Assembly: GCA_025965915.1 (NCBI GenBank)
Contig: JAOPWA010000036.1
Coordinates: forward strand, 1-35,343
DNA from: Dactylosporangium sp.
GTDB taxonomy: Bacteria; Actinomycetota; Actinomycetes; Mycobacteriales; Micromonosporaceae
Reading direction: 5' to 3'
DNA length: 35,343 nt
Shown: positions 1-22,907 of the stretch, one piece after another
Layout: each line of letters begins with the position of its first letter
Position numbering within the stretch: position 1 is the first letter of the stretch
Notes under the pieces: generated by a model
Told to the model about the DNA's origin: nothing
Database searches by the model: none
Seen by the model: the letters and a program-made list of their open reading frames with translations, nothing else
Position numbers and translations under genes: made by a program

Positions 1-708
1 CATGACGTAAGCCGGCATGATCGCGGCCATCATCAGGGCGGCGAAGTACCCGAACTGTGCCGAGCCGCTCAGGCCGTCGCCGGCGCCCTGCGTGGTCACC
101 ACGACGCCCGGTCCGCGCTTGTACTGCAGGGCGAGCATCACGATGACGAGGACGACACCGACCAGTTCCGCGGCGACGCCGACGTTGTTGACCCGCGAGA
201 TCACCTTGACGCCGGCCACGTTGAGCGCGGTGGTGAGGGCGATGGTGCAACAGCCCAGGAAGACGGCGTTGGTCGCGTCGTCGGTGAACACCTGGAAGCC
301 AGACCAGATCTGGGGCAGCACGATCTGCATCGCGATGGACACGGCCGCGACGCTGATGATCGAGCCGATCAGCATCGTCCAGCCGGAGAAGAACGAGCCG
401 ACCCGGCCACTGATGTGCTTCGACCAGGTGTAGACCGAGCCCGCGATCGGGAACCGGGCACCGAGTTCGGAGAAGCACAGCGCGACGCAGAACTGCCCCG
501 CCAGTACGAACAGCCAGGCCCAGAACAGTCCTGGCCCGGCGAAGCCGTAGCCGAACCCGAACAACTGGAACATGCCGGTCAGGATCGAGATGTAGCTGAA
601 GCCGGCGGCGAAGGAGGAGAAGCTGCCCAGGCTGCGGCTGAGCCGCTGCTGGTAGCCGTAGGTTGCGAGGTCATGGGCATCGGTCGCCCGGACGCCGTGA
701 TCGTTCAT
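1..708 (-). CDS. APC-superfamily permease, amino acid/choline transporter type (3' end cut off)
   Basis: This frame is absent from the ORF track because it has no stop inside the window. Reading from the ATG at 706-708, preceded by AGGAGG at 715-720, gives an uninterrupted 236-codon protein beginning MNDHGVRATDAHDLATYGYQ. It has a hydrophilic N-terminus followed by alternating hydrophobic segments, including SLGSFSSFAAGFSYISILTG, LFWAWLFVLAGQFCVALCFS and the loop FPIAGSVYTWSKHISG. This layout is typical of the amino acid/choline transporter branch of APC permeases, which are secondary importers in the cytoplasmic membrane. The family has about 12 membrane helices and 450-520 residues, so roughly half is missing. 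It lies 114 bp downstream of, and on the same strand as, the choline-kinase-like gene, so co-transcription is likely and the permease may import the substrate of that locus. The substrate itself is not readable from the sequence. Confidence 0.85.
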   Translation of the reverse strand, partial: MNDHGVRATDAHDLATYGYQQRLSRSLGSFSSFAAGFSYISILTGMFQLFGFGYGFAGPGLFWAWLFVLAGQFCVALCFSELGARFPIAGSVYTWSKHISGRVGSFFSGWTMLIGSIISVAAVSIAMQIVLPQIWSGFQVFTDDATNAVFLGCCTIALTTALNVAGVKVISRVNNVGVAAELVGVVLVIVMLALQYKRGPGVVVTTQGAGDGLSGSAQFGYFAALMMAAIMPAYVM

Positions 709-822: not shown

Positions 823-1791
823 CTAGTCCGGACGTTGTGCCTCGTCGAGCAGCCGCTCGAAATCGGGGCCCGTGAACTCCTCCACCGCGCGGTCGTACTT
901 CTCCATCCCCCAGGACCAGAAGTCGAAGTCGATCGTGCTCACGGCGTCCTGGATCGACGCCCACAGCGTCCATCCGTACTTGGACATCAGCCCCAGCAGG
1001 CGGGCGCGAGCGAGCTTGTGTCGAAGATGCCGGCCGTAATAGCTGTCGACCAGCTCTTCCAGATGTTCCAGCGTCAGGTTCGACTCGCTCCAGATGTTGC
1101 CGAGCTCGAAGCACGCGTCGTTGTTGCCGGAGTACTCGTAGTCGATGAGCCACAGTCGCGACCCGTCGTCGAGGAAGTTGGCGGCGAGCAGGTCGTTGTT
1201 GCAGGGCACGGTGCCCTCGTCGCGTACAGCCAGGGCGTCGGCGAGCCGGTCGACCTGCGGCATGAGGTCCAGGTACCCCGTCGGCAGGCGGAAGCCGCGC
1301 GCCCGCACGATGTTCAGGTAGTCACGCTGGATGCGGAACATGTTGAAGTCGTTGCGGAACCTGGGCCCGGTGTGGAGCAGTCGGCAGGCCCGCGCCACCC
1401 GGGCGAGCTGCCCTGAGTCGCGAAGGTCTTGGGGGGCAAGGGTCTTGGCGTTGACGAACTCCACGACCAGCACGTGCAGTTCGGGTACGTAATCGAGGAC
1501 GCGAGGCGCGGCGCCGGACTCGGCCGCGGCGACCGAGTTGGCGTACTCCGCGTCGCGGTTGATGGACAGTAGGTCACCGTCCGAACTTGAGTGGCGGACC
1601 ACGACAGTGCGCTCAGGGGTGGTGACCTTGTAGTTGAAGTTGGTCAGGCCCCCGTCGAGCCGCTCGACGGTCCTCGACTGTCCGGCCAGGCAGGGCAACA
1701 GGTCGAGAGTCTCGTCGATGCTCAGCTCCCGCTGGGCGGCCGACGAACCGGGCGCTATCTGCGTTTGTTGCGCAAGGTGCTGTTCGGCCAC
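823..1791 (-). CDS. Choline kinase-like / aminoglycoside phosphotransferase-fold small-molecule kinase
   Basis: This is a 322-aa protein of the choline/ethanolamine kinase (LicA-like) branch of the APH fold. Visible motifs are a nucleotide loop RLDGGLTNFNYKV (about 44-56), the catalytic loop PCNNDLLAANFL (196-207, Asp200 as likely base) and the metal-binding LIDYEYSGNND (215-225). The family usually has His before the Asn-Asp of the catalytic loop (HND); here it is NND. The ORF track starts at a TTG at 1911, but that extension has no good ribosome site and contains a 17-bp tandem duplication that shifts frame between copies, as expected of untranslated leader. The GTG at 1789-1791 has GAGGAG six bases upstream and is preferred. 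It probably phosphorylates a hydroxylated amine brought in by the adjacent permease; this is inference. Two GTCTAGAC operators lie in its leader. Confidence 0.8.
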   Translation of the reverse strand: MAEQHLAQQTQIAPGSSAAQRELSIDETLDLLPCLAGQSRTVERLDGGLTNFNYKVTTPERTVVVRHSSSDGDLLSINRDAEYANSVAAAESGAAPRVLDYVPELHVLVVEFVNAKTLAPQDLRDSGQLARVARACRLLHTGPRFRNDFNMFRIQRDYLNIVRARGFRLPTGYLDLMPQVDRLADALAVRDEGTVPCNNDLLAANFLDDGSRLWLIDYEYSGNNDACFELGNIWSESNLTLEHLEELVDSYYGRHLRHKLARARLLGLMSKYGWTLWASIQDAVSTIDFDFWSWGMEKYDRAVEEFTGPDFERLLDEAQRPD

Positions 1792-1914: not shown

Positions 1915-1948
1915 GTCTAGACTTAAACATTAGGCGAAATGTCTAGAC
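1915..1948. promoter_or_regulatory. Paired GTCTAGAC operators in the kinase/HAD divergent promoter
   Basis: Two perfect 8-bp palindromes GTCTAGAC lie at 1915-1922 and 1941-1948, with centres 26 bp apart, in an AT-rich stretch unlike the surrounding DNA. The second continues as GTCTAGACCGAAAAGGTC, very like GTCTAGACCGAATGGGTC at 11257. GTnTAnAC is the known core of operators bound by HutC-subfamily GntR regulators (the DasR/NagR dre sites contain GGTCTAGACC). A HutC-type GntR is encoded at 8958-9773. The second site ends about 31 bp before the HAD start codon, so binding there would likely repress both directions; that is inference. Confidence 0.75.
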
Positions 1949-1979
1949 CGAAAAGGTCTGGAGAGGCTAGCCTGCTGAC

Positions 1980-2726
1980 ATGGTGAACAGCCCGTCTGAC
2001 ATCGCCAGCCCGGCCCATCTCACGCCCTTGTTACGGGGCTGGGCCGCCTCACCCGGACGCGGGGTCATCTTCGACTTCAACGGGACGCTGTCCAACGACG
2101 AGCCGATCCTCCTGCGCATCTTCACCGAGTTGTTCGCCGAGCATCTGCACTGGACCCTGTCCCCGGACGACTACTACTCCAGGCTGGCGGGCCACAGTGA
2201 CCGCGAGATCATCGAAATGGTGGTCGGGAACATCGGGCCCGGTGACGGTGCCCCGAAAGACGATCCGCTCGTCGACCTGCTCCTGACGCAACGCCGCCGC
2301 CGTTACCGCGAACTCGTCGAGGCTTCGTCGCCGATCACTCCCGCCGCCGCGGCTCTGGTCCGGCGACTGTCGCGGGCCGGTGTTCCGCTGGCGATCGTGA
2401 CAGGTGCCCAGCGACCCGACGTCGAGTTCGTACTGGAGCGCAGCAGCATCGCCGACCTCATCCGGCTGATGGTGACCGAAGAGGACGTCACGCGGGGCAA
2501 GCCCGACCCTGAGGGCTTCCTGGCGGGCGCCGTCGGCCTCGGCCTCGACCCCCGTGACCTGTTGGTGTTCGAGGACTCGGTGGCCGGCATCCGCGCCGCG
2601 AAAGCCGCTGGGATGGCATGCGTCGCGGTCGTTGGCACGCGTGACGGCACTGCCCTCGCCACCGAGGCGGACTGCGTCGTCGCCGGCCTCAGTCCGTCCC
2701 TCATGGACGGCGTCCTGCCGGACTGA
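1980..2726 (+). CDS. HAD-superfamily hydrolase, beta-phosphoglucomutase/phosphonatase-like
   Basis: This 248-aa protein has all four HAD motifs: motif I FDFNGTLSND (Asp32 nucleophile), motif II AIVTGAQ, motif III Lys in TRGKPDPEGF, and motif IV VFEDSVAGIRAAKAAGM. A helical cap follows motif I (about 45-110), placing it in the HAD-IA group with phosphoglycolate phosphatase and beta-phosphoglucomutase. The second motif I aspartate, the usual general acid/base of phosphatases, is Asn34, so simple phosphatase activity is not assured; other HAD proteins with DxN do exist. It starts at ATG 1980 just after the paired operators and is followed 88 bp later by the FAD/GcvT gene. Co-regulation with a divergent kinase suggests it acts on the phosphorylated intermediate or removes a dead-end phosphate. 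The substrate is unknown. Confidence 0.85.
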   Translation: MVNSPSDIASPAHLTPLLRGWAASPGRGVIFDFNGTLSNDEPILLRIFTELFAEHLHWTLSPDDYYSRLAGHSDREIIEMVVGNIGPGDGAPKDDPLVDLLLTQRRRRYRELVEASSPITPAAAALVRRLSRAGVPLAIVTGAQRPDVEFVLERSSIADLIRLMVTEEDVTRGKPDPEGFLAGAVGLGLDPRDLLVFEDSVAGIRAAKAAGMACVAVVGTRDGTALATEADCVVAGLSPSLMDGVLPD

Positions 2727-2758
2727 CCCCGACGTGCCCCGTTCACCCATTCAGCTGA

Positions 2759-2790
2759 CCGACACCGCGTACAACCGACACCGCGTACAC
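2759..2790. repeat. 16-bp tandem duplication before the FAD/GcvT gene
   Basis: CCGACACCGCGTACA followed by A or C occurs twice in succession (2759-2774, 2775-2790), between the HAD stop and the ribosome binding site of the next gene. It may be a simple duplication or a paired protein site. Confidence 0.85.
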
Positions 2791-2814
2791 CTGGCATGAA
2801 TCGAGGACGAGCCG

Positions 2815-5304
2815 ATGTCCACTGACAAGCAACTGCCCACTTCCGCGAGCGTCGTCATCATCGGCGGCGGGGTCGGCGGCGCGAGCATCGCCTACCACCT
2901 CGCCGAACTCGGGCAGCGCGACGTCGTGCTCGTCGACCGCGACGAGCTCACGAGCGGGTCGACGTTCCACTCAGCCGGTCTCGTGGGTCAGCTACGCGCG
3001 GATCCGACCCTGACCCGGATGAACATGTACTCGGTCGAGCTGTACCGCACGCTGCAGCAGACCGACTTCGCCCCCGCCTGGGTGGAGTCCGGTGGGATAA
3101 AACTCGCGTCGACCCCCGAGCGGATGGAGGAGATCCGGCGCCAGATCAGCTGGTCGCGTACGTTCGACCTCGGTCTGGAGGAGATCTCCGCCGAGCAGGC
3201 CCAGGAGCTCTTCCCGCTCATGGACACCAAGGGCATCGTGGGAGCGGCCTACCTGCCCTCCGACGGCTACATCGACCCGTCGCAGCTGTGCTACGCGCTG
3301 GCCAACCTCGCCCGCCGCAACGGCGTCAAGATTCACACGCACACTCGGGTACTCGGCATCGACGCCGAGAAGGGCCGCGTCTCGCGCGTACGCACCGACC
3401 GCGGTGACATCGAGTGCGAGACGGTCGTCAACTGCGGGGGCATGTTCGCCGCCGAGATCGGCCGCATGGTGGGGGTACGCATCCCGCTGATCCCCATGTC
3501 GCACCAGTACCTGGTGACCGAGGCTTTCCTGCCGCGGCGCGAGCGTCCGCTGCCGACCCTGCGCGATCCCGACCTTCTGGTGTACTACCGCCAGGAGGTC
3601 GACGGCCTCGTCATGGGCGGCTACGAGCGCGACGCCGAACCGTGGACGGCCGACGCCAACTCCTACGACAACATCCCCGCCGACTTCAACGGTCGCCTGC
3701 TCCCCGACAACTGGGCGCGGTTGGAGGAGATCACCGAGAACTCCCAGATCCGGGTACCGGCAATGGGTGACGTGGGGCTGCGCAAGCTGATCAACGGGCC
3801 GGAGGCGTTCACCCCCGACAACGAGTTCTGCCTCGGCGAGACAGAGGTCGACGGATTCTTCGTCGCCGCCGGCTTCTGCGCGCACGGTATCGCAGGCGCC
3901 GGCGGCATCGGCAAGGTGATGGCCGAGTGGGTGGTCGAGGGGGAGCCGAGCCTTGACGTGTGGCACATGGACATCCGCCGTTTCGGTCGGCAGTACCGCT
4001 CGCCCTCGTACACGCTCAAGCGCACGCTCGAGACCTACCAGACCTACTACGACATCAAGTACCCCAACCACGAGCGCTCGGCCGGGCGTCCGCTGCGCAT
4101 GTCCCCAGCGTACCCGTGGCACGCCGCCCACGAGGCGTTCTTCGGTGAGAAGTCGGGCTGGGAGCGGGTCAACTACTACCGGTCGAACGCCGACCACGGC
4201 GACGAGTCGCTGCGCCCGCGTGGCTGGGCCGGACGGAACTGGTCGCCGGCCATCGGCGTCGAGCACGTAGCCACGCGGACCACCGCCGCGCTCTTCGACG
4301 AGACGTCGTTCGCCAAGATCGAAGTCAGTGGGCCGGACGCCGCCGATCTGCTCGAATGGGTCTGCGACAACCGGGTGGCGCGCGAAGTCGGCTCCGTCAC
4401 GTACACCCAGGCGCTGAACAAGCGCGGCGGCATCGAGGCCGACTTCACCGTCACGCGTACCGCGGACGACAGCTTCCTTGTCGTCACCGGTACCGCCTTC
4501 GGTTCGCATGATCTCGCCTGGCTGCGTCGGCAGGCGCGCCGGCGGTCGGCGGACGTGCGCATCACCGACGTCACCGGCCAGTACGTCTGCTACGGACTTT
4601 GGGGCCCGCGTAGCCGGGAGATCCTCAGCAGGCTGACTCCGGCCGACCTGAGCAACGGGGCGTTCCCGTTCATGACCGCACAGGACGTCGCGGTCGGCGA
4701 CGTCCCGGCGCGGGCGTTGCGCGTGACCTTCACCGGCGAGTTGGGCTGGGAGATCTATGCGCCCGGTGAGTACGGGGCGGGGCTCTGGACAGCATTGTGG
4801 GAGGCGGGACAGGACCTCGGACTGGTCGCGGCCGGTTACCGCGCCATCGACAGCCTCCGGCTCGAGAAGGGCTACCGGGTATGGAGCACGGACGTCACGC
4901 CCGAGACCAACCCGTACGAGGCCGGTCTCGGCTTCTGCGTGAAGCTGGACAAGCCCGGTGGCTTCCTCGGTGCTGACGCCCTGCGTGCGGCCAAGGAAGC
5001 CGGCGTGACCAGGCGGCTGCGATGCATCACCCTGGACGATCCCCGGTCCATCGCACTGGGCAGCGAGCCGGTCCGCGTCGGGGACAAGGTCGTGGGCCGG
5101 GTGACCTCCGGCGGATACGGCTACACCGTCGGCTCCTCGATCGCCTACGCCTACCTGCCGACGGCGGAGGCGGAGCCGGGCTCGAAGGTGTCGATCGACA
5201 TCTTCGGGCAGTGGGTGGACGGCGTCGTCGCACCTGATCCGTTGTTCGACCCCCGGTCCACGCGGGTCCGCCTGGATGTGGGGGAGCAGCCGGCCAGCCG
5301 GTGA
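2815..5304 (+). CDS. FAD-dependent amine dehydrogenase with C-terminal GcvT domain (dimethylglycine/sarcosine dehydrogenase-like)
   Basis: This 829-aa protein has an N-terminal DAO oxidoreductase domain with dinucleotide-binding VVIIGGGVGGASIAYHLAE (13-31), then STFHSAGLVGQLR (49-61). The His52 position matches the histidine that carries covalent FAD in dimethylglycine and sarcosine dehydrogenases. From about residue 425 to the end is a folate-binding GcvT domain with GELGWEIYAPGEYG and YRAIDSLRLEKGYR. Proteins of this build oxidatively demethylate N-methyl amino acids or amines and pass the one-carbon unit to tetrahydrofolate. The length matches full-size bacterial members, and the start has GAGGA 8 bases upstream. 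It sits downstream of the HAD gene under the GTCTAGAC promoter. The N-methyl substrate is not known; dimethylglycine or sarcosine are the default guesses, but the kinase and HAD partners do not belong to the standard betaine route. Confidence 0.88.
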   Translation: MSTDKQLPTSASVVIIGGGVGGASIAYHLAELGQRDVVLVDRDELTSGSTFHSAGLVGQLRADPTLTRMNMYSVELYRTLQQTDFAPAWVESGGIKLASTPERMEEIRRQISWSRTFDLGLEEISAEQAQELFPLMDTKGIVGAAYLPSDGYIDPSQLCYALANLARRNGVKIHTHTRVLGIDAEKGRVSRVRTDRGDIECETVVNCGGMFAAEIGRMVGVRIPLIPMSHQYLVTEAFLPRRERPLPTLRDPDLLVYYRQEVDGLVMGGYERDAEPWTADANSYDNIPADFNGRLLPDNWARLEEITENSQIRVPAMGDVGLRKLINGPEAFTPDNEFCLGETEVDGFFVAAGFCAHGIAGAGGIGKVMAEWVVEGEPSLDVWHMDIRRFGRQYRSPSYTLKRTLETYQTYYDIKYPNHERSAGRPLRMSPAYPWHAAHEAFFGEKSGWERVNYYRSNADHGDESLRPRGWAGRNWSPAIGVEHVATRTTAALFDETSFAKIEVSGPDAADLLEWVCDNRVAREVGSVTYTQALNKRGGIEADFTVTRTADDSFLVVTGTAFGSHDLAWLRRQARRRSADVRITDVTGQYVCYGLWGPRSREILSRLTPADLSNGAFPFMTAQDVAVGDVPARALRVTFTGELGWEIYAPGEYGAGLWTALWEAGQDLGLVAAGYRAIDSLRLEKGYRVWSTDVTPETNPYEAGLGFCVKLDKPGGFLGADALRAAKEAGVTRRLRCITLDDPRSIALGSEPVRVGDKVVGRVTSGGYGYTVGSSIAYAYLPTAEAEPGSKVSIDIFGQWVDGVVAPDPLFDPRSTRVRLDVGEQPASR

Positions 5305-5333
5305 CGAGGCGGACCGCCAGGTGATGCGAGGCT

Positions 5334-5732
5334 ATGGTCATGACAACGGACCGGAACGTGCTTGGTGGCGACCTGGAACCCTGCGGGACCGACCCGGTGA
5401 CCGGGTTCTACCGTGACGGGTGCTGCAGCACCAGACCGGAGGATCTCGGCAGTCATACCGTGTGCGCGGTGGTCACCGCGGAGTTCCTGGCCTATCAGCA
5501 GCGGGTCGGCAACGACCTGACCACGCCCAGACCGGAGTACCGGTTTCCCGGGCTACGCCCCGGGGACCGCTGGTGCGTGGTTGCATCGCGGTGGTTGGAG
5601 GCCTACGAGGATGGCGTCGCGGCGCCGGTGGTGCTTGCCGCGACCCATGTCCGTGCCCTGGACATCATCCCGCTCGAAGCGCTGAAACAGCAGGCGGTGG
5701 ATGTGCCGGCAGACCCCAGTTCGCTCGGCTGA
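5334..5732 (+). CDS. DUF2237 family protein
   Basis: This 132-aa soluble protein is recognisable as DUF2237 from the conserved NVLGGDLEPCGTDPVTGFYR, DGCCSTRPEDLGSHTVCAVV, GNDLTTPRPEYRFPGL and GDRWCVVASRWLEA blocks. The four cysteines (in EPCGT, DGCC and HTVCAV) and the GDRWC motif are typical. The family has no established biochemical role; it is widespread as a stand-alone gene of about 125-135 residues. It follows the FAD/GcvT gene by 29 bp on the same strand and could be the last gene of that operon, but the family occurs in many contexts, so no functional link is claimed. ATG 5334 and a second in-frame ATG at 5340 are both possible starts. Confidence 0.88.
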   Translation: MVMTTDRNVLGGDLEPCGTDPVTGFYRDGCCSTRPEDLGSHTVCAVVTAEFLAYQQRVGNDLTTPRPEYRFPGLRPGDRWCVVASRWLEAYEDGVAAPVVLAATHVRALDIIPLEALKQQAVDVPADPSSLG

Positions 5733-5734
5733 CG

Positions 5735-5778
5735 CTGGTCACAGCGCTGGGTTGCTGGATCTGGTCACAGCGCTGGGT
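5735..5778. repeat. 18-bp direct repeat, 26-bp period
   Basis: CTGGTCACAGCGCTGGGT occurs at 5735-5752 and 5761-5778, immediately after the DUF2237 stop codon. The core AGCGCT is palindromic, so the pair may be a two-site operator or just a duplicated segment. It precedes the nitroreductase remnant. Confidence 0.8.
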
Positions 5779-5827
5779 CGCCGGGTCCGGTGTAGCCAAC
5801 GCGTCAGGGCGCGGTCAGACTGTCACG

Positions 5828-5992
5828 ATGACCGCTCACTACCGCGCTCCGGGTTGGCTCACCCGCAACGTCTTCAACCGCCTGGTCGCGCTCTTGACCC
5901 GGCACGGCGTGAGTGGACCGGGCTCCAGCGACGAGCAACTCCGCGCGATCGCACCCGACCACCCCGCGTTCGAGGTCGTGCCGCTGAGCTGA
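5828..5992 (+). pseudogene. Internally deleted deazaflavin-dependent nitroreductase (DUF385/Ddn-like) remnant
   Basis: The reading frame from ATG 5828 encodes 54 residues. The first 28 (MTAHYRAPGWLTRNVFNRLV and onward to RHGVS) match the usual N-terminus of nitroreductase family deazaflavin (F420)-dependent proteins. The last part, SSDEQLRAIAPDHPAFEV, matches their usual C-terminus. The intervening 80-100 residues, which in the family carry the beta-barrel and cofactor contacts, are absent, and the two ends are joined in frame. No good ribosome site precedes it. The most economical reading is a relic of an in-frame internal deletion, not a functional mini-protein. The family identification is from memory of the pattern and needs an alignment. 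Confidence 0.6.
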
Positions 5993-6085
5993 CCGGCGCC
6001 GCCACCACCAGCGGCACCGCCGGTGACGCAGCAGCCCTGGCCCAGGCGATCACCACCCGTACTTCGGCACAGCTACGCTCGTCGA

Positions 6086-7000
6086 GTGCCTGAGGTTCCC
6101 GTTCGATACCGATCGTCCGACGAGGACAGTGGCCGATGGCTCGGCTTCCCGTTCCGGCCAGGCGACATCGTGATCAGTACTCGGTCCAAGAGTGGCACGA
6201 CGTGGATGCAGATGATCTGTGCCCTGCTGGTCTTCCAGACCCCGGACCTGCCGGCGCCGCTGTCGACGATGTCACCGTGGCTGGACTGGCTGATCACATC
6301 CCGCACCGAGGTGTATGCGCGGCTGTCTGCCCAGGAGCATCGCCGGTTCATCAAGACCCATACGCCTCTCGATGGAGTACCGCTGGACCGGCAGGCCACC
6401 TACATCGTGGTCGCCAGGCATCCGCTCGACATGGCGGTGTCCCTGTACCACCAGAGCGACAACCTCGATCATGAACGGATCCGCAGTCTCACCGGCCAGC
6501 CCAAGTCGAACCGGCCGCCTTCTCCACGCCAACCCCTGGATGAGTGGCTGCTGTCATGGATCGACCGGGAGGTCGACCCGCGTGAGGAACTGGACTCCCT
6601 GCCCGGGGTGATGTGGCACCTGTCCGACGCCTGGACGCGCCAACGTGGCCCAAACGTCGTGCTCGTTCACTACGACGACCTGTCTGCCGACCTGGAGAAC
6701 GAGATGCGCCGCCTCGCCGCGCTGCTCGGGATCACCGTGCCCGAGCAGACCTGGCCGCAGCTCGTCGAGGCCGCCACGTTTGAACACATGCGGGCCCGAG
6801 CTGACCGGCTCGCCCCAGACCCGTCGGGCGTCTTCAAGAACCGCGAAGCCTTCTTCCGACTGGGAATGTCGGGGTCAGGTCGCAAGCTGCTCAGCAACGA
6901 AGAGCTTGGGCACTACCGCGCACGCACGGCAAAGCTGGCACCACCGGACCTGCTGGCCTGGCTCCACCGCGAGGACCTGACGACAGCTACCCATCCGTAA
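6086..7000 (+). CDS. PAPS-dependent sulfotransferase (cytosolic SULT-like)
   Basis: A 304-aa sulfotransferase. The 5'-phosphosulfate loop is ISTRSKSGTTWMQ (about 30-42), the catalytic-histidine motif is FIKTHTPLDG, the 3'-phosphate site is VVARHPLDMAVSLYH, and the C-terminal loop is FKNREAFFRLGMSGSGRKLL. It would transfer sulfate from PAPS to a hydroxyl or amine of a small molecule. The ORF track begins at GTG 6023, but the extra 21 residues are basic and lack family similarity; the GTG at 6086, giving (M)PEVPVRYRSSDEDSGRW, fits how related actinobacterial proteins begin. The ribosome site is weak in both cases. It stands alone after the nitroreductase remnant, with no sulfate-activation genes nearby, so the acceptor is unknown. 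Confidence 0.88.
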   Translation: MPEVPVRYRSSDEDSGRWLGFPFRPGDIVISTRSKSGTTWMQMICALLVFQTPDLPAPLSTMSPWLDWLITSRTEVYARLSAQEHRRFIKTHTPLDGVPLDRQATYIVVARHPLDMAVSLYHQSDNLDHERIRSLTGQPKSNRPPSPRQPLDEWLLSWIDREVDPREELDSLPGVMWHLSDAWTRQRGPNVVLVHYDDLSADLENEMRRLAALLGITVPEQTWPQLVEAATFEHMRARADRLAPDPSGVFKNREAFFRLGMSGSGRKLLSNEELGHYRARTAKLAPPDLLAWLHREDLTTATHP

Positions 7001-7054
7001 TCACCATGGGCACCAGCAAGCGCCGGCAGAGGCGCGACGATCGCGAGGGTCGAT

Positions 7055-8362
7055 TCAGGCAGTGAACCTCACCGAGTTTCGACGTCGATAGGCAACGAAC
7101 AACACGGTACCGATACCCGCAAGCAGGAGTCCGCAGCCGGCGATGATCCCGACGTTGGTCCCGGTAATGGGGAGCGCGTCACCACCGGCAACCCCGTTCG
7201 CGGCGGCCGTCGGCGAAGGAGCGCTCGTAGTGGCCGGCGGGGCAGGAACGACCGCGGGGGTAGTCGGCGAAGGAGTGCTTGGAGAGGTCTCGGGGGAGGG
7301 AACCTGGTTTGGCTTGAAAACGATGTCGACCCAGTAGTTGTGGTTGGACCGACTGCCTGGGAAGCCAGCGCCGACGTGGTAGGCGCCGCCCGCGGCCGGT
7401 ACGTGCAGAGGGCCGCTGTCGAGGCCGGTACCTGCGAAGCCGTTCAGATTCACGGAATAGAACCCGGTGGACGTGTGGTAGGACGCGACGTACGTGGTAT
7501 CGGCGGTGATCGCGACCGGTGGCGTGAAGGTCACGGTCTGCCAGCCGGCGCCGGTCTCTCCGGAGAAGGTCGCGGTCGCCAGTAGCCGGCCTTCCGATGT
7601 CCACATCGAACCGGTGTGCGTGCCGGTGTTGTTCGAACCCTTGTAGAACCGCAGCGCCGTGACCACGCCGCTCACGTCTGAGCTGAACTTCAGACCGAGC
7701 TCATTGGAGGTGGAATCATCCCAGTTGGCCGTGGTCGGGGTGTCCCCGTCGGCGAAGAGGCTGAAAGTCGACGATTGGGCCCCACCCGCGACGAAAAGCG
7801 GGTCCACCCAGTAGTTGGTTGCGCTGTACGAACTCGTGGGGAAACCGCTACCGCCGTAGCGGAAGACACCGTTGTTCGTGGCCGGAGCGGTCAAGGGCCC
7901 ATTGGTCAAGGGCGCGGTGAAGAAGTTCGGATCAGCGGCGTAATGGCCGTTCGGAGCGAGGTACGACGCCACGTAGGTCATACCGGCTATTACGGGAACC
8001 GGGGTGGTGAAGTTCGCCATTCGCCAGCCCGTGCCCGACGAGTCCCCGAAGGTCAACGTCGCGAGCTGCGTTCCGCTGGACGTCCACAGGCTGCCGCTGT
8101 GGGTCCCGGTGTTGCCCGGTCCCTGGTAGAACCGCAGCCCGGTCACAGTGCCGTTGACGGCGGACTTGAATCGCACGCCCACTTCTGCCGCGCTGGCGTC
8201 GTTGAAGGCGGGGACCGTCGGAACCGCGTTAGTGGCGAACAGCGTAGAAACCGGCTCATTGGCGGCAAGAGCGGGCGATGGGGTCAATGTCGTGGCCGCC
8301 ACGCAGAGTACGGCTGCGGTCAGGCCGACTACGCGCAGTAGTACCGGACGCGATTTGGGCAT
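7055..8362 (-). CDS. LPXTG-anchored surface protein with two DUF4082 domains
   Basis: A 435-aa exported protein. The ATG at 8360-8362 starts MPKSRPVLLRVVGLTAAVLC, a signal peptide with basic start and hydrophobic core ending near SPALAANE. Two homologous beta-rich DUF4082 modules follow, each with GVRFKS or GLKFSS, (L)RFYxGxxNTGTHxGS(L/M)WTS and a YWVD ending. A Pro/Ser/Thr-rich stalk leads to LPITG, a perfect LPXTG sortase signal, then a membrane helix and the basic tail YRRRNSVRF. DUF4082 domains usually occur in large secreted glycan-related proteins and are thought to be binding modules; the two here have no catalytic partner. The raw ORF start (8551) would place the signal peptide internally and is rejected. 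No sortase gene is in the window. It precedes an AT-richer spacer on its 5' side. Confidence 0.85.
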   Translation of the reverse strand: MPKSRPVLLRVVGLTAAVLCVAATTLTPSPALAANEPVSTLFATNAVPTVPAFNDASAAEVGVRFKSAVNGTVTGLRFYQGPGNTGTHSGSLWTSSGTQLATLTFGDSSGTGWRMANFTTPVPVIAGMTYVASYLAPNGHYAADPNFFTAPLTNGPLTAPATNNGVFRYGGSGFPTSSYSATNYWVDPLFVAGGAQSSTFSLFADGDTPTTANWDDSTSNELGLKFSSDVSGVVTALRFYKGSNNTGTHTGSMWTSEGRLLATATFSGETGAGWQTVTFTPPVAITADTTYVASYHTSTGFYSVNLNGFAGTGLDSGPLHVPAAGGAYHVGAGFPGSRSNHNYWVDIVFKPNQVPSPETSPSTPSPTTPAVVPAPPATTSAPSPTAAANGVAGGDALPITGTNVGIIAGCGLLLAGIGTVLFVAYRRRNSVRFTA

Positions 8363-8808
8363 AAGCCTCGTCCACGACGGTCGAGGCAAACCAGAAAAAA
8401 GTGCCACATTGACCCCTACGCGCCGCTTGCCGCCCACGGATTCTGCCCCTCGAATACTGTTTGTAGAAAACCTAACTACGCAAGGTTGCGCAGCGTCCGA
8501 TATGCCCCTCGACCAGCAAAAAGGCACGGCGAAAGATAGCCCGGCAGGCAACTTGCCACCATGACCTATTCACACTGCTTAATCTGCTAAATTGGCTAAT
8601 GCGAATTAACCGTTCGGACCTTCTGGTGAAAGACGGTGTGGACTATTAGCCCCGGTCAGCTCGGCGCCCTGGTTCGGCACGGCGGCCTGCTGGCCGTACG
8701 TTCTGTGGCGCCCCGGCGTGTTCCTGTTGACGCGGGTACGGTCCACACCGCGCCAAGCCCGCAGTCGGCCTCGGCGATGTTCGAGAACTCCTCGCAGCCG
8801 AGCCCGGG
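8363..8808. other. Spacer: AT-richer promoter region of the surface protein plus unassigned DNA
   Basis: About 450 bases between the surface protein and the 8809-8957 fragment. The part from 8380 to 8640 is clearly less GC-rich than its surroundings (for example CTGCTAAATTGGCTAATGCGAATTAACC near 8585) and is the likely promoter region for the leftward surface protein. From 8640 to 8808 the DNA returns to high GC and has short overlapping open frames on both strands, none with a convincing start or recognisable product. It may be decayed coding sequence. Confidence 0.5.
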
Positions 8809-8957
8809 TCAGGGAGCGCCCGTGGCGATCCGTTCCAGTGCCTCGCGCCAGTGCTTGCGCATCGCTTCACGAGCGTTCGCGTCGGGGAGCTTTTCCAGGT
8901 GAGCGTGGATGGCGGTGACCGTCCCCCTGCTGCCGACCCGAGCAAGATGCGCACTAG
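8809..8957 (-). pseudogene. Orphan C-terminal coding fragment (family not recognised)
   Basis: On the minus strand a frame ending at TGA 8809-8811 reads SAHLARVGSRGTVTAIHAHL followed by EKLPDANAREAMRKHWREAL and ERIATGAP. The composition is protein-like: two amphipathic helices and no frameshift. It has no ATG, GTG or TTG start, and in the upstream direction the frame runs out of phase into the 3' end of the GntR gene. This looks like the tail of a lost gene abutting the GntR stop, perhaps through a deletion. I do not recognise the family, and chance remains possible in high-GC DNA, where long spurious frames are common. Confidence 0.3.
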
Positions 8958-9773
8958 TTATGCGGACGACGGCTCGCCGTCCACAGCAGACGCAATCTGT
9001 GTCCGCGCCGCGTCTCCGATTCCGGTACGGATGGAGATGCGGATGCGGTCGGAGCGAAAGAGGTCGCGGGCGAACTCCACGGGGAGCCCGGCCGCGGTGA
9101 AGGCGATCCGCTCGATCAGCATGAGCGGCGCTCCGGGTTCGATGCCGAGCATCCCGGCCTCCTCCGCCGTCGCGATGACCGGCTCGAGAGACTCGTTGGC
9201 CGTGTACGGAGTCTGGCCGTACCGGCGGGTGAGAACGTCGTAAATGGAGCCGGACAGACGGTGTGACAGCAGGTCCGGGAAGGTGTCGGCGGGGAAGTAG
9301 GACCGCTCCAGCGCCAGTGGTTCGCCGTCACCGGAGCGCACCCGGACCACCTCGTGAACCGGGGCCCCCGGCTCCAGACCGAGTGCCTTCGCGGCCGCGC
9401 GGATCGCGGGTTGGGTCGACGCGCTGATGCGCCGTGCTCCGGCGCGCAGCTGTGCTCTGCGCATCTGTTCGGTGAAACCGGCCAGGCCGGTCAGGTCGCA
9501 TTCGATCTTAGGCTGGGCGATGAACGTGCCACCCGTTCTGCCGGGCTTTCGCTTCAGTACGCCCCGACCGGCCAGGCTCGCGAGGGCCTGTCGCAACGTC
9601 ATCCGGCTCACGCCGAGGGCCGTCGCCAGTTGCTGCTCCCGCGGCAACTTGTCGCCTGGTACGAGGTCACCCTTGCTGATGGCCTTCATCAACCACTGTT
9701 CGATCTGCACGTGAGCCGGCAGATCGGAATCCCTGCTCAGGTCCGGCGTACTCGCCAGGACGCTATCCGCCAT
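8958..9773 (-). CDS. GntR-family transcriptional regulator, HutC subfamily
   Basis: A 271-aa regulator with an N-terminal winged helix (about 18-88) containing the GntR signature PGDKLPREQQLATALGVSRM and TLRQALASLAGRGVLKRKPG, and a C-terminal UTRA ligand-binding domain (about 100-260). UTRA hallmarks are PVHEVVRVRSGDGEPLALER, NESLEPVIATAEEAGMLGIE and PLMLIERIAF. ATG 9773 has GGGAGGG about eight bases upstream. HutC-type proteins bind GTnTAnAC palindromes and release on binding a catabolite. The only GTCTAGAC palindromes I find in the window are in front of the FAD oxidase that precedes this gene (53 bp upstream in the same operon) and in the kinase/HAD promoter, so it is very probably the local repressor and autoregulated through the shared transcript. 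The effector is unknown. Confidence 0.92.
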   Translation of the reverse strand: MADSVLASTPDLSRDSDLPAHVQIEQWLMKAISKGDLVPGDKLPREQQLATALGVSRMTLRQALASLAGRGVLKRKPGRTGGTFIAQPKIECDLTGLAGFTEQMRRAQLRAGARRISASTQPAIRAAAKALGLEPGAPVHEVVRVRSGDGEPLALERSYFPADTFPDLLSHRLSGSIYDVLTRRYGQTPYTANESLEPVIATAEEAGMLGIEPGAPLMLIERIAFTAAGLPVEFARDLFRSDRIRISIRTGIGDAARTQIASAVDGEPSSA

Positions 9774-9826
9774 CGTGAGTTCCCTCCCCAGCGGCCAACA
9801 GTATCGGGAGGTCCATGTGAGCCGAC

Positions 9827-11164
9827 CTAAGGGCTCGTACTCGTCGCGTCAGCCAGGCCGTCAGCGCCGGCCATGCCGTCAGCGCCGGCCATGCCGTCAG
9901 CGCTGGTCTGGGCGGCATGGTTGACGCTGCCGCCCTGTGCGGCGGAGCCGATACCCGCGTAGTACTCCTCGTACACCCGCTGCGCGGCGGCGCGGGCCCC
10001 CGCCCACGACCAACCGCCGTCCATGAACCGCGCGGGACTCAGCGATCGCGCGTACGGCGACGGGTGTGGGCCGAGGCTGTCGAGGACGTGCTCGGCGATG
10101 CCGGCGGACCCGGAGACGCCGTGCGCGTTGCATCCGGCCGCCATGACGAAGCCCCGGAGGCCGGGCACGGGGCCGATGATGAACCGCCCATCGGGCGTGA
10201 ACGTGGGCCAGCCGCGGAAGGTCTGCCGGATGCCGGTGTCCGTGGCGTCGGGGATCACCGTTTCCAGTCCCTCGGCGAAGCCCGCCAGCACGTCCCAGTC
10301 CGGTACCGGGTTTGTCGCAACCGCGTCGCTCGACTCGCGCGGATCGAGGCTGACCGCGCCCGCCTCCCAGCCGCCGCAGAGAATGCCGGACACCTCGGCT
10401 CGCGCGTAGATACGTTCGTCGGGGATGCGCAGGACGGGAAGGTCGGCGTGCCAGCCGGGCGCGGACTCGGTGACGTAGTACTCGTGCCGGACCGGAACGA
10501 TCGGCAGGTCCACCCCGACCATGCGGGCGACCTGCCAGGCCCACGGCCCGGCCGCGTTGATGACCAGGCCGGTTGTGATGCTGCCACGGTCGGTCTCGAG
10601 GCCGATGACGGCCCCGTTTTCCGTCCGCACGTCCAGCACCCGGGTGTTCGTGACGACGTTCGCACCCAGTTCGCGGGCGGCGCCGGCATAGGCCGTAGCG
10701 AGGCTGTTGGGCTGCAGGTAACCGTCGGTGGGGCACCACAGCGCGGACCGGACGTGCGCCGGGTCGATGGGCGGGAACAGTTCCTTGAGCCGGGCGGGGC
10801 GTAGAAACTCAACCTCGAGCCCGACGGACCGGGCCACCTTGGCCATGAGCTCGAACTCTTCGGCCCGCTCATCGGTGGACGCGATCCGGATGCTGCCGGT
10901 CTGCCTCCAGTCGACGGGCCAGCCGGTCTCCTGCTCGAATCGGGAGAACAGCTTGACCGAGGCCATCGCGAGCAGGGTCCGCTCGGTGCTGGCGCGCACC
11001 TGTCCCACCAGGCCCGCGGCCTGACTCGAGGTGGCACCCGCGAGCTCTCGCGCCTCGATCAGTTGGACGCTCCGGTGCCCTGCCCTGGTGAGCATGTACG
11101 TGACGGCGCAGCCGATCGCGCCGCCCCCGATCACCGTGATGTCGGCGTCCCGCAGTTCCGCCAT
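9827..11164 (-). CDS. FAD-dependent oxidoreductase, DAO family (sarcosine/glycine oxidase-like)
   Basis: A 445-aa single-domain amine oxidoreductase with the dinucleotide fold DITVIGGGAIGCAVTYMLTR (8-27), SSQAAGLVGQVR (46-57), a typical DAO C-terminal FAD motif VPGLRGFVMAAGCNAHGVSG, and no GcvT domain. The position that carries covalent FAD as His in the 829-aa protein (FHSAG) is Gln here (SQAAG), so FAD is probably bound non-covalently. The last residues are a low-complexity ADGMAG repeat after the fold ends. ATG 11164 is preceded by GGGAGG. It heads a leftward operon with the GntR gene, 92 bp downstream of a GTCTAGAC operator. Its similarity to the first part of the 829-aa enzyme (shared AGLVGQ(L/V)R block) suggests paralogues acting on consecutive or related N-alkyl amines. 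Confidence 0.88.
   Translation of the reverse strand: MAELRDADITVIGGGAIGCAVTYMLTRAGHRSVQLIEARELAGATSSQAAGLVGQVRASTERTLLAMASVKLFSRFEQETGWPVDWRQTGSIRIASTDERAEEFELMAKVARSVGLEVEFLRPARLKELFPPIDPAHVRSALWCPTDGYLQPNSLATAYAGAARELGANVVTNTRVLDVRTENGAVIGLETDRGSITTGLVINAAGPWAWQVARMVGVDLPIVPVRHEYYVTESAPGWHADLPVLRIPDERIYARAEVSGILCGGWEAGAVSLDPRESSDAVATNPVPDWDVLAGFAEGLETVIPDATDTGIRQTFRGWPTFTPDGRFIIGPVPGLRGFVMAAGCNAHGVSGSAGIAEHVLDSLGPHPSPYARSLSPARFMDGGWSWAGARAAAQRVYEEYYAGIGSAAQGGSVNHAAQTSADGMAGADGMAGADGLADATSTSP
9857..9905. repeat. 18-bp in-frame tandem repeat at the FAD oxidase C-terminus
   Basis: GCCGTCAGCGCCGGCCAT is repeated at 9857-9874 and 9875-9892 with a partial third copy. It encodes ADGMAG ADGMAG ADGLAD just before the stop, beyond the conserved fold. 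Confidence 0.9.
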
Positions 11165-11232
11165 GTCGCCTCCCTCATCGCGGCGCTACCACCCCGGTCG
11201 GTGCGACAACGCCGCGTTGTGGACCACCGCAA

Positions 11233-11264
11233 TGCTAGACCGGATGACTCACATAGGTCTAGAC
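11233..11264. promoter_or_regulatory. GTCTAGAC operator plus degenerate copy upstream of the FAD oxidase/GntR operon
   Basis: A perfect GTCTAGAC lies at 11257-11264 inside the longer palindrome GGTCTAGACC, and a degenerate TGCTAGAC at 11233-11240, with centres 24 bp apart. The downstream flank CCGAATGGGTC matches the flank of the 1941 site (CCGAAAAGGTC). The position, about 93 bp before the FAD oxidase start, and the paired layout mirror the kinase/HAD promoter. This supports one regulator, the HutC-type GntR, for both transcripts. Confidence 0.75.
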
Positions 11265-11307: not shown

Positions 11308-11799
11308 CTACCCCGTCAGGCTCTGGACCAGCGCCTCGAGTTCCCGCATGAGGTGGTCGGTACGCTCGGCGCCGTAGGCCGCCTCGATCGCGGTGTGGTG
11401 TTCAGCCGTCCGGCGGTCCAGCCGGGCGACCAGATCGCGACCGAGGTCGGACAGGTAGACCGCCACCCGACGACGGTCGGCGATGTCCTGGCGGCGGTAG
11501 ACCAGTGCGTTGTCGACCAGTCGGTCGACCGCCTTCGTCACGGTGGGATGCGGCATCAGGACCGCTTCGGCGAGATCGGTCATCGAGTGCCCGTGGCCGT
11601 CGGAGAGCGCCCGCAGGATCCGCGCCTGTTCCACGCTGACCTGCTCGGCTGCCAGTGACTCGGCCAGGCCGCGGTTGACCTCACGTTCGGCCTCGCTGAG
11701 CAGGTACGCCAGATGCGTGCGCAGTTTCGGCTCAGCCACCTTCGGCTCAGCCACCTTCGGCTCAGCCAACGTCGTCTCAGCCAACGTCGTCTCGGCCAA
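11308..11799 (-). CDS. MarR-family transcriptional regulator
   Basis: A 163-aa winged-helix regulator. Its core reads THLAYLLSEAEREVNRGLAE, EQARILRALSDGHGHSMTDL, AEAVLMPHPTVTKAVDRLVD and the wing YRRQDIADRRRVAVYLSDLG, followed by a C-terminal dimerisation helix. The ORF track extends it to 473 residues through the complementary strand of the next gene, which is an artefact. The TTG at 11797-11799 has a strong purine tract AAAAGGGGGG just upstream and is chosen as start. The N-terminus LAETTLAETTLAEPKVAEPK is a tandem repeat with alternative GTG starts inside it, so copy number could affect expression. It is divergent from the AmiC-like gene, with 51 bp between starts, and is the obvious candidate regulator of the amide module. 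Confidence 0.88.
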   Translation of the reverse strand: MAETTLAETTLAEPKVAEPKVAEPKLRTHLAYLLSEAEREVNRGLAESLAAEQVSVEQARILRALSDGHGHSMTDLAEAVLMPHPTVTKAVDRLVDNALVYRRQDIADRRRVAVYLSDLGRDLVARLDRRTAEHHTAIEAAYGAERTDHLMRELEALVQSLTG

Positions 11800-11800
11800 C
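11731..11800. repeat. 15-bp tandem repeat at the MarR N-terminus (four copies plus partial)
   Basis: Two copies of CTCAGCCACCTTCGG (11731-11760) are followed by two copies of CTCAGCCAACGTCGT (11761-11790) and a partial fifth. Translated on the minus strand these are (L/V)AE(T/P)(T/K) repeats spanning the start codon region, with a TTG or GTG possible start in each unit. Confidence 0.92.
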
Positions 11801-11850
11801 CCTGACCGCCCCCCTTTTCCTCGCGCCTGCAAGCGAAGATACTCGGCGCC

Positions 11851-12960
11851 GTGACCGACGACGTCGCGCTCATCACCGACCTGCTGGAAGCCCGGCTGTT
11901 GGCCCCGGAGCCGCACCGGGTGGCGCGGGTCGGTGTCGTCGTGCCAACCTCCGGCACCCTCGGGATGTTGGCTCCCTGCGCGCTGAACTGCGCGTCGCTG
12001 GCGGCGGCGGAGCTCAACGCGGCCGGCGGAATCCTCGGCCGCCCGGTCGAGTTGGTCGTCATCGACGGCGGCAGAACGCCGGCGAAGGTGGCCGCGGACG
12101 TATCCGGGTTGGTGCGGGACGGCGCGATCGCGGCAGTGGTCGGCACTCACGCCAGCGACGTACGGGTGGCGACCGCCCGGGCCATCGGTGCCGCCGCGCC
12201 CTACGTCTACACCCCGCCCTACGAGGGCGGCGAGCGGAGCCGGGGCATGTTCCTTCTCGGCGAGACACCCGGCCGGCAACTGCGTCCGGTCGTCGACTGG
12301 CTGGTCGGGCGGCGTCGGGCCCGGCGCTGGTTCCTGCTGGGCAACGACTATGTCTGGCCCCGGCGCTCGCATGCGGCGGCCCGCCGCTACCTGGACCAGG
12401 CCGGCGCGGAGGTGATCACCGAGCGGTACGTACCACGTGGGATCGTCGACCCGTACCCACTGGTGGAGGCGGTGGGCGCCGCCCGCGTCGACGCTGTGCT
12501 GCTCACCCTCGTGGGCAGTGACCTGGTGACGTTCAATCGGGCGTTCGCCGCGAGCCGGTGGGGTAGCAGGGTACTGCGGCTGTGCGGGGCGCTGGAGGAG
12601 AACGGTCTGGTCGGCGCCGGCGGAGACGACAGCGGCGAACTGTACGCGGCGATGGGCTACTTCGGGGCGGTGGCGACCGAGTCGAGCCTCGCGTTCGGCG
12701 AGCGCTACACCGCCCGGTTCGGCCCGCACTCCCCGCTGCTCAACGGGTACGGGGAGGGCTGCTACGACGGCGTGCGGCTACTGGCCGCGCTGGCGCAGCG
12801 GGCCGGGACGCTCGCCACGTCGGCCCTGGACGCCGTCGCCGACGGTACGACGGTGGTCGGCGGGCGGGGCCGGTTCACGCTGCTGGACCGGCACGCCGAC
12901 CAGCCAGTTTATCTGGCCCGCGCGGAAGGCCTGGACTTCAACGTGATCGCCGCATTCTGA
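11851..12960 (+). CDS. AmiC-like cytosolic ligand-binding protein (Leu/Ile/Val-binding fold)
   Basis: A 369-aa type I periplasmic-binding-fold protein with VARVGVVVPTSGTLGMLAPC (about 24-43), a cofactor-like loop LAAAELNAAGGILGRPVELV, AVVGTHASDVRVATARAIGA, and YVYTPPYEGGERSRGMFLLG. It has no signal peptide or lipobox, so it should stay in the cytosol. This is the property of AmiC, the amide sensor of the Pseudomonas amidase operon, as opposed to transport-binding proteins. The gene starts at GTG 11851, and its downstream neighbours are a permease and an acetamidase/formamidase, which matches an amide-sensing role. No ABC transporter genes accompany it. In Pseudomonas, AmiC inhibits the antiterminator AmiR; no AmiR-like gene is present, so the partner would have to be different, perhaps the divergent MarR protein. 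That last step is speculation. Confidence 0.8.
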   Translation: MTDDVALITDLLEARLLAPEPHRVARVGVVVPTSGTLGMLAPCALNCASLAAAELNAAGGILGRPVELVVIDGGRTPAKVAADVSGLVRDGAIAAVVGTHASDVRVATARAIGAAAPYVYTPPYEGGERSRGMFLLGETPGRQLRPVVDWLVGRRRARRWFLLGNDYVWPRRSHAAARRYLDQAGAEVITERYVPRGIVDPYPLVEAVGAARVDAVLLTLVGSDLVTFNRAFAASRWGSRVLRLCGALEENGLVGAGGDDSGELYAAMGYFGAVATESSLAFGERYTARFGPHSPLLNGYGEGCYDGVRLLAALAQRAGTLATSALDAVADGTTVVGGRGRFTLLDRHADQPVYLARAEGLDFNVIAAF

Positions 12961-12974
12961 CCGGGCGCGACGCA

Positions 12975-13020
12975 TCAACAAAGTTTGCTATGGAAAACTT
13001 TTCAAATTCAAGCTTGTTGA
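12975..13020. promoter_or_regulatory. AT-rich promoter/operator region before the amide permease
   Basis: This is one of the few AT-rich stretches in the module. It contains the inverted repeat AAGTTT-8-AAACTT (12981-13000), nested in an outer repeat TCAACAA (12975-12981) / TTGTTGA (13014-13020). A MarR- or AmiC-dependent site here would place the permease and amidase under a separate promoter from the AmiC-like gene. No clear -35/-10 pair can be assigned. Confidence 0.5.
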
Positions 13021-13067
13021 CTATCGTCCGGCACACCTGATCCATGCCCGAGAAGGGAAGTCGCGCC

Positions 13068-14525
13068 GTGGCCCACCCACCCGACCAACCGGCGGCTGCC
13101 GCGCAGTTGCAGGAGTTCGGCTACCGCCAGGAGCTCAGCCGCTCGCTCAGCTTCGCCGACCTGCTCATCTACGGCCTCATTTTCATGGTGCCGATCGCGC
13201 CGTTCGGCATCTTCGGCAGTGTGTACGCCGGTTCCGGCGGCATGGTCGCGCTCGCGTACATCGTCGGCATGGTGGCGATGATGTTCACCGCCCTGTCGTA
13301 CTCGCAGATGGTCCGCGCGTTCCCGATGGCCGGGTCGGTCTACAGCTACGCCGGCCGGGGCATCGCGGCACCGGTGGGCTTCCTGGCCGGCTGGGTCATC
13401 CTGCTCGACTACGTGCTGATACCCGGCTTGCTGTACCTCGTGGCCAGCGTGGCCATGCACACGTTCGTGCCTGTCATCCCGGTATGGCTGTGGCTGGCAG
13501 CCTTCGTTGTCCTCAACACGGTGGTCAACTACCTCGGCATCGAGATGACCGCCAGGATCACCCGCATCATGCTCGTCGTCGAAGTGGTGATCCTCGCCGT
13601 CTTCCTCGCGGTCGGCGTCGCCGCGCTCGCCCAGGGCAAGGGCGCCGGCTTCGCGCTGAGCCCGTTCTACAACGCCGCCACCTTCAAATGGTCGGTCGTC
13701 TTCGGCGCCGTCTCGGTCGCGGTGCTGTCGTTCCTCGGCTTCGACGGCATCTCGATGCTCGCCGAGGAGAGCCGCGAGGAGGCCCGCAAGATCGGTCGAT
13801 CCATGATCGTCGCGCTGCTGCTGGCCGGCACCCTGTTCATCGTGCAGACCTGGGTGGCCGCGCTGCTGGTACCCGACCCGGGCAAGCTGCTGCACGACGG
13901 CGACCCGGCGGGGACCGCGTTCTACGACGCCGCCCGGGTGGCCGGCGGCGGCTGGCTCGCCGGCCTGGCCGCGCTCGCCACCGCGATCGCCTGGGGGTTC
14001 GCCAACTCGCTGGTCGCCCAGGCCGCCACATCCCGCCTGTTGTACGCGATGGCCCGCGACGGGCAGATGCCCCGGTTCCTGGCCAAGATCAACCCCAAGC
14101 ACAAGGTACCGGCGAACGCCACCTTCCTGGTCGCGGCGGTGTCACTGGTGCTCGGCATCTGGATGGCGCTGCGCAGCGACGGGTTGACGCTGCTCACCAC
14201 GCTGGTCAACTTCGGCGCGATGACCGCGTTCCTGGCCCTGCACGTCTCGGTGGTCGTGCACTACGTCATCCGGCAGGGCAGCCGGGACTGGCTGCGCCAC
14301 GTCGTCGTGCCCGTCATCGGCTTCATCATCCTCGCGTACGTGGTCATCAACGCGAAGGTGGCCGCGCAGGTTCTCGGCTTCATCTGGCTCGGCATCGGCG
14401 TGATCGTCCTGATCACGATGTACGCCCGCGGCCGGCGTCCCACGCTCGCCGGCCTGACCGAGACAGCGGCCGGCGAGACAGCGGCCGGACCGCAGAACGA
14501 AACCTTGAGGAGCGTTGGTGACTGA
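13068..14525 (+). CDS. APC-family amino acid/amide permease
   Basis: A 12-helix permease of about 485 residues: SLSFADLLIYGLIFMVPIAP, the consensus loop MVRAFPMAGSVYSYAGRGIA, and AVLSFLGFDGISMLAEESRE, which is characteristic of bacterial APC members. The raw ORF begins at ATG 13044, but that codon has no ribosome site. GTG 13068 follows AAGGGAAG by seven bases and gives MAHPPDQPAAAAQLQEFGYR. The C-terminal tail after the last helix is low complexity and includes a duplicated ETAAG. Its stop overlaps the start of the formamidase, so the two are translationally coupled. It likely imports an amide or amino acid amide that the amidase then hydrolyses. Confidence 0.87.
   Translation: MAHPPDQPAAAAQLQEFGYRQELSRSLSFADLLIYGLIFMVPIAPFGIFGSVYAGSGGMVALAYIVGMVAMMFTALSYSQMVRAFPMAGSVYSYAGRGIAAPVGFLAGWVILLDYVLIPGLLYLVASVAMHTFVPVIPVWLWLAAFVVLNTVVNYLGIEMTARITRIMLVVEVVILAVFLAVGVAALAQGKGAGFALSPFYNAATFKWSVVFGAVSVAVLSFLGFDGISMLAEESREEARKIGRSMIVALLLAGTLFIVQTWVAALLVPDPGKLLHDGDPAGTAFYDAARVAGGGWLAGLAALATAIAWGFANSLVAQAATSRLLYAMARDGQMPRFLAKINPKHKVPANATFLVAAVSLVLGIWMALRSDGLTLLTTLVNFGAMTAFLALHVSVVVHYVIRQGSRDWLRHVVVPVIGFIILAYVVINAKVAAQVLGFIWLGIGVIVLITMYARGRRPTLAGLTETAAGETAAGPQNETLRSVGD
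14460..14489. repeat. 15-bp in-frame duplication in the permease C-terminal tail
   Basis: GAGACAGCGGCCGG(C/A) occurs at 14460-14474 and 14475-14489 and encodes ETAAG ETAAG, after the last membrane helix and close to the stop codon. Confidence 0.85.
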
Positions 14526-21666: not shown

Positions 21667-21680
21667 GGGTTTCTCCTCGG

Positions 21681-21728
21681 GATTTGTCAGGCGGAGGATT
21701 TGTCAGGCGGAGGATTTGTCAGGCGGGC
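21681..21728. repeat. 16-bp tandem repeat, three copies, at the potA stop codon
   Basis: GATTTGTCAGGCGG(AG/GC) occurs at 21681-21696, 21697-21712 and 21713-21728. The third copy contains the potA stop codon, so each copy carries the same TGA context on the minus strand. It fills most of the potA-potD gap. Confidence 0.92.
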
Positions 21729-22786: not shown

Positions 22787-22873
22787 CGCCGCCTTTCGTG
22801 CGCCAACAGCGCCCGCCGCCGGAGCTGATGGGATGGCGGACGCGCCGGACATTAAGCGACGAACGGGGCGGCA

Positions 22874-22907
22874 CTCAATGGATATATGCACAACCATTTG
22901 TATTGAG
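22874..22907. promoter_or_regulatory. Inverted repeat in the potA/PucR divergent promoter
   Basis: CTCAAT (22874-22879) and ATTGAG (22902-22907) flank an AT-rich core that contains a second inverted repeat ACAA-CCAT-TTGT (22890-22901). It lies between the divergent potA and PucR genes, 26 bp before the PucR start, and is a natural candidate for the PucR binding site. Confidence 0.5.

Follow-up and report, generated by a model that had tools for sequence, protein, structure and literature searches.

The 35,343-nt stretch of DNA analysed here (the window), from a soil actinomycete, contains exactly three copies of the 8-base palindrome GTCTAGAC, at 1915–1922, 1941–1948 and 11257–11264. These palindromes are very probably operators of the HutC-type GntR protein encoded at 8958–9773, placed on three promoters, one of which drives the operon of the GntR itself, so that it would also repress its own synthesis. 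The sites, their position on the promoters, their conservation, their dependence on this GntR and the covariation of their ±5 bases are observed in the sequences; from these we infer that the GntR binds directly and that it represses rather than activates. Together, the rarity of the sites, their footprint in relatives, their presence or absence with the GntR, their promoter position and the residue covariation support one HutC-type GntR regulon joining both intergenic regions, as the initial annotation had proposed.

Three promoters with a putative operator on the -35 region

The putative operator O1 (1915–1922) lies over the -35 region of the kinase promoter, whose -10 box, TACATT, is found on the minus strand at 1891–1896, 18 bp from O1. 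O2 (1941–1948, followed by CGAA) places TAGACC (1944–1949) at the -35 position of the promoter of the HAD and FAD/GcvT genes, with the -10 box TAGCCT on the plus strand at 1968–1973, 19 bp from O2. O3 (11257–11264, also followed by CGAA) lies over the -35 region of the promoter of the DAO-gntR operon, and the -10 box TAGCAT is on the minus strand at 11232–11237, 19 bp from the core. In each operator a TAGACC or TAGACT portion falls at the -35 position, with a spacer of 17–18 bp. There are thus three promoters rather than the two initially described, each with an operator on its -35 region 18–19 bp before a TANNNT -10 box. A degenerate fourth copy that had been placed at 11233 (TGCTAGAC) overlaps the minus-strand TAGCAT at 11232–11237, and is better read as part of the oxidoreductase -10 box.

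The same arrangement is seen across relatives. Among 59 distinct sites, TANNNT peaks at 18/19 bp past the core, being present in 66 of 118 flanks against a background of 0.7%, and 46 of the sites have such a box on at least one side. A scan of 1700–2100 for the sigma-70 consensus found no promoter; it demands a near-TTGACA hexamer, and therefore has no bearing on the overlap of -35 region and operator seen across relatives. The HAD transcript from the O2 promoter is probably leaderless, judging from the ATG at 1980. Mechanistically, with an operator over each -35 region, a GntR dimer would block RNA polymerase at all three promoters, that is, leftward into the kinase and permease genes, rightward into the HAD and FAD/GcvT genes, and leftward into the DAO and gntR genes, where O3 would allow the GntR to repress its own operon.

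Rarity of the sites in the window and the genome

In 100 dinucleotide shuffles of the window, GTCTAGAC occurred 0.26 times on average and never three or more times (0/100), which bears out the earlier description of three perfect palindromes. One-mismatch copies were not enriched in the window (9 against 10.5 expected); this form is at chance level, so the signal resides in the exact core. The genome searched comprised 6.13 Mb in 685 contigs and was 86% complete. It contained 13 exact copies, three on the 35 kb contig and 10 occurring singly on other contigs, and this is not the random frequency that would have spoken against the regulon. The 12-mer GTCTAGACCGAA has only two copies in the whole genome, at 1941 and 11257. 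A flank shared by these two sites (CCGAA..GGTC) had been pointed out in the initial annotation; its GGTC part does not recur at the other sites in Planosporangium and is not conserved.

None of the 10 other exact genomic sites has the CCGAA flank, and these sites are unlike regulon members. A core followed by TANNNT 18–20 bp downstream was found at four places genome-wide, three of them in the window, compared with 2–3 for a reversed-pattern control. Relaxed scans told little: a genome-wide search for GTCTAGACCGWW allowing one mismatch gave 37 strand-wise matches against 34 for its reversed control, and a scan for dre-like sites (TGGTNTANACCA) gave few matches, none above its control. Of the 10 exact sites on other contigs, one (L005) is near-tandem, another (L008) overlaps a likely start codon, and neither has related genes nearby. 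The latter (L008 1501, contig C544:11346–11357) reads GTCTAGACCGAT, overlaps what is likely to be the start of a small gene, lies ~ 740 bp from an ORF resembling a class-III aminotransferase and has no -10 box at 18–19 bp; it is possibly another target.

Genes under the three promoters

Genes were assigned from Pfam and NCBIfam profiles. The kinase gene (823–1791, minus strand) encodes a choline/ethanolamine-kinase-like protein (PF01633, 3e-22). Its start was initially set too far upstream. The ORF can be extended to a TTG at 1911, but the alignment with orthologs begins only near residue 25 of the 322-aa form and GAGGAG precedes a GTG at 1791, and we therefore place the probable start near 1791. 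Behind it, after a gap of 114 bp, the permease gene (1–708, minus strand, 3' end cut by the contig) probably comes second in the kinase operon. It had been called "ACT-type", while its profile match is APC-type (TIGR03428-like, below cut-off). Rightward from O2 are the genes for a HAD-type hydrolase, a phosphatase (1980–2726, plus strand; PF13419, 5e-26), and for an enzyme with DAO, FAO_M and GcvT domains in a single chain (2815–5304, plus strand), a core regulon member in relatives. Its architecture is matched full length by dimethylglycine dehydrogenase and N,N-dimethylglycine oxidase (PDB 4pab, 1pj5), which places it in that family by sequence likeness; unlike those enzymes, it has kinase and phosphatase genes beside its own. 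A DUF2237 gene (5334–5732, plus strand) is possibly co-transcribed with these genes and is not conserved in the regulon.

The gntR-holding operon begins with a gene for a DAO-type FAD oxidoreductase (9827–11164, minus strand; PF01266, 2e-66), followed by the gene for the GntR (8958–9773, minus strand). This protein has the HutC arrangement of an N-terminal GntR winged helix and a C-terminal UTRA domain (PF00392, 9e-19, and PF07702, 3e-39, both over cut-off), and the GTnTAnAC core characteristic of the subfamily is found at the three promoters.

Several other genes of the window were noted in passing. Between the two target operons are a sulfotransferase gene (6023–7000) and, on the minus strand, a gene (7055–8551) whose product combines two DUF4082 domains with a hydrophobic anchor at the C-terminus, this second gene lying outside the conserved regulon. 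Following the regulon, 11308–15531 encodes a MarR-type regulator, an ABC substrate-binding-like protein (11851–12960), an APC permease (13044–14525) and an acetamidase/formamidase-family enzyme (14515–15531), and resembles a separate amide-utilisation cluster without GTCTAGAC. Minus-strand genes at 18723–22897 resemble an ABC transporter (membrane permease and lipoprotein substrate-binding protein) by eye only.

Conservation of the sites and dependence on the GntR

The exact core is present in 46 of 55 related loci from named genomes, with 58 occurrences compared with 0–5 for every other xxCTAGxx palindrome; it is missing from nine loci, some of which are on cut contigs. Counting the window, the sites adjoin FAD/GcvT genes in 40 loci, kinase genes in 36 and a glutamine-synthetase-like gene in seven, and more rarely permease (four), gntR (four), HAD (two) and DAO genes (two). 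In Tamaricihabitans, the DAO, kinase and HAD genes are each preceded by their own site, the DAO protein there being a 66% ortholog of the one in the window; these separate sites support DAO and HAD as regulon members. The regulon locus of Planosporangium flavigriseum also holds electron-transfer flavoprotein alpha and beta genes (L025 10816–12597), pointing to a dehydrogenase role for the FAD enzymes of that locus.

The presence of the site follows this GntR. The protein is rare, being encoded in only three of the 301 genomes from this family, of which the other two match P. flavigriseum and P. thailandense; GTCTAGACCGAA occurs once in each of these two, at the GntR locus, and was not found in a congener without this GntR. 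Across 395 genomes of the class, the kinase is encoded in 19/20 genomes with the GntR and in 41/375 others (p = 3e-16). Among 29 kinase loci, the exact site was found in 10 of the 13 from GntR-carrying genomes and in none of the 16 from genomes lacking it (p = 1.4e-5). The three GntR-carrying exceptions are congeners whose GntR is 47–49% identical and which have GACTAGAC near the kinase start, in the same intergenic gap (L181 4301, L182 5479, L144 1023), a possible operator shift from GTCTAGAC. A one-mismatch site was observed in two of the 16 GntR-lacking loci, making that form weaker evidence.

Covariation of a recognition residue with the ±5 bases

The solved structures closest to the window GntR are those of NagR and then DasR. 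In NagR, Arg48 reads G-4 and Arg38 reads G-5 (PMC4333415), and the authors of the DasR structure anticipated that a HutC protein lacking an Arg38 equivalent might need one guanine only (PMC4918961). The window GntR has Arg57 at the Arg48 position, which is invariant across its orthologs, and Gln47 at the Arg38 position. Where the Arg38 equivalent is Arg, the G-5/C+5 pair was found in 38/38 sites, compared with 7/22 where it is Gln, Glu, Asp, Gly, Ala or Pro, although this trait has switched on the tree no more than some three times and Fisher p-values therefore overstate independence. In a second sample, which overlaps the first in part, the pair was present in 7/7 sites with the Arg38 equivalent and 2/8 without it. 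The window sites read A..T, T..C and G..C at ±5, O1 and O2 lacking the G-5/C+5 pair. The ±5 bases thus covary with the Arg38-equivalent residue in the direction expected from the NagR and DasR structures. Changing Gln47 to Arg is predicted to make the window GntR favour GGTCTAGACC over AGTCTAGACT.

Relation to DasR and NagR, and other explanations

The window sites have exactly the core of the dre sites of DasR and NagR, a likeness absent from the initial annotation. Might they simply be dre elements for the GlcNAc regulator DasR, with the local GntR incidental? The dre consensus, A(G/C)TGGTCTAGACCA(G/C)T, does contain the GTCTAGAC core (PMC4398421), and the same genome encodes a separate DasR-like protein with Arg38 and Ser226 and a ROK-type kinase gene adjoining. 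We nevertheless consider this very unlikely. Only the core matches the 16-bp consensus: the bases at ±7/8 are A/T, +6 is mostly G, and the ±5 pair is broken at O1 and O2. DasR sites would be expected irrespective of a local GntR, whereas these track the GntR, down to their absence from the kinase loci and the congener that lack it, and the ±5 pair is relaxed where the GntR itself has no Arg38 equivalent. No nag, pts or chitinase gene is among the targets, and Gln47 in place of Arg38, with only the Arg48 equivalent kept, departs from NagR and DasR orthologs. Flanks, Gln47 and the replacement of Ser226 by Asp argue for a regulon separate from those of DasR and NagR.

A DasR ortholog could still cross-bind, above all at O3. 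This operator matches GGTCTAGACC, the 10 bp at the centre of dre, without a mismatch, and so do all sites in lineages with the Arg38 equivalent. That DasR acts on some of these operators beside the local GntR as main regulator, coupling the regulon to GlcNAc status, is in our judgement unlikely, the outer dre bases being missing at every site and the G-5/C+5 pair from two of the three operators. Palindromes can also arise upstream of genes by chance or as restriction or recombination sites, and the one-mismatch form is indeed at chance level in the window; with the exact core clustered in the genome, conserved far beyond any other palindrome of its type and held at 18/19 bp from the -10 box, such an origin is extremely improbable.

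The reading we favour, control by the local GntR, has parallels among known systems, with differences from each. Like NagR (YvoA) of Bacillus subtilis, it is a HutC/UTRA protein with the Arg48 equivalent and the phosphate-pocket residues kept (PMC4333415); besides the substitutions at Arg38 and Ser226, its wing is two residues longer, and it targets amine-type genes where NagR targets nag genes. DasR of Streptomyces coelicolor shares the operator core and the HutC/UTRA protein type (PMC4398421, PMC4918961), and differs from the window regulon, which is small and local. A third likeness is to the Streptomyces GlnA4 ethanolamine cluster, SCO1610–SCO1615, with its repressor EpuRI (PMC6529630): in several relatives the GntR locus has a GS-like ligase, ALDH, SDR, glutamine amidotransferase and permease together with GTCTAGAC. 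None of these four enzymes is encoded in the window, and the published listing of the Streptomyces cluster has no kinase or FAD/GcvT enzyme (PMC6529630). A GlnA4-type cluster with these four enzymes, a permease and its own GntR-type regulator is found elsewhere in the genome of the window (contig C285, L185 5970–12634), without GTCTAGAC.

Effector and substrate

The NagR/DasR residues that contact the effector phosphate (T90, R133, R135, S165 and Y167), together with E145, are kept in the GntR. They make an anionic effector plausible, though such phosphate ligands are common among HutC proteins (PMC4918961). In place of S226, which lies close to the acetyl group of GlcNAc, the window GntR and 52/52 orthologs have Asp, unlike a GlcNAc-6-P pocket. 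The gene set is probably amine-degrading. Taking the kept phosphate ligands, the core choline-kinase-like kinase and the dimethylglycine-dehydrogenase-like enzyme together, the simplest interpretation is that a positively charged amine bearing a phosphate acts as the inducer and that the substrate is an N-methylated amino alcohol. We propose this only tentatively, at less than even confidence: the inducer may be a compound such as phosphocholine or phospho-(N-methyl)ethanolamine, produced by the choline-kinase-like enzyme of the regulon itself, and the genes would serve to take up the amino alcohol, phosphorylate it and strip its methyl groups. In some relatives, the products would feed a GlnA4-type gamma-glutamyl ethanolamine pathway.

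Discussion

The type of switch, a repressor on its operator, is familiar, and this regulon, conserved across dozens of actinomycetes, appears to be undescribed; no description of it was found in the open-access literature. The broader picture is also tentative, one to which we give somewhat under even chances: an actinobacterial regulon for N-methylated amino alcohols in which a HutC-type repressor, a relative of DasR and NagR, has kept the dre core, senses a phospho-amine and controls a folate-dependent demethylase, with a GlnA4-type pathway captured in several lineages and co-evolution of the Arg38-equivalent residue with the ±5 bases. In practice, scans with GTCTAGAC that are aimed at DasR sites will also collect this other regulon. 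Its regulator, operator and gene set can now be tested together for a catabolic route that is not evident from gene order alone.
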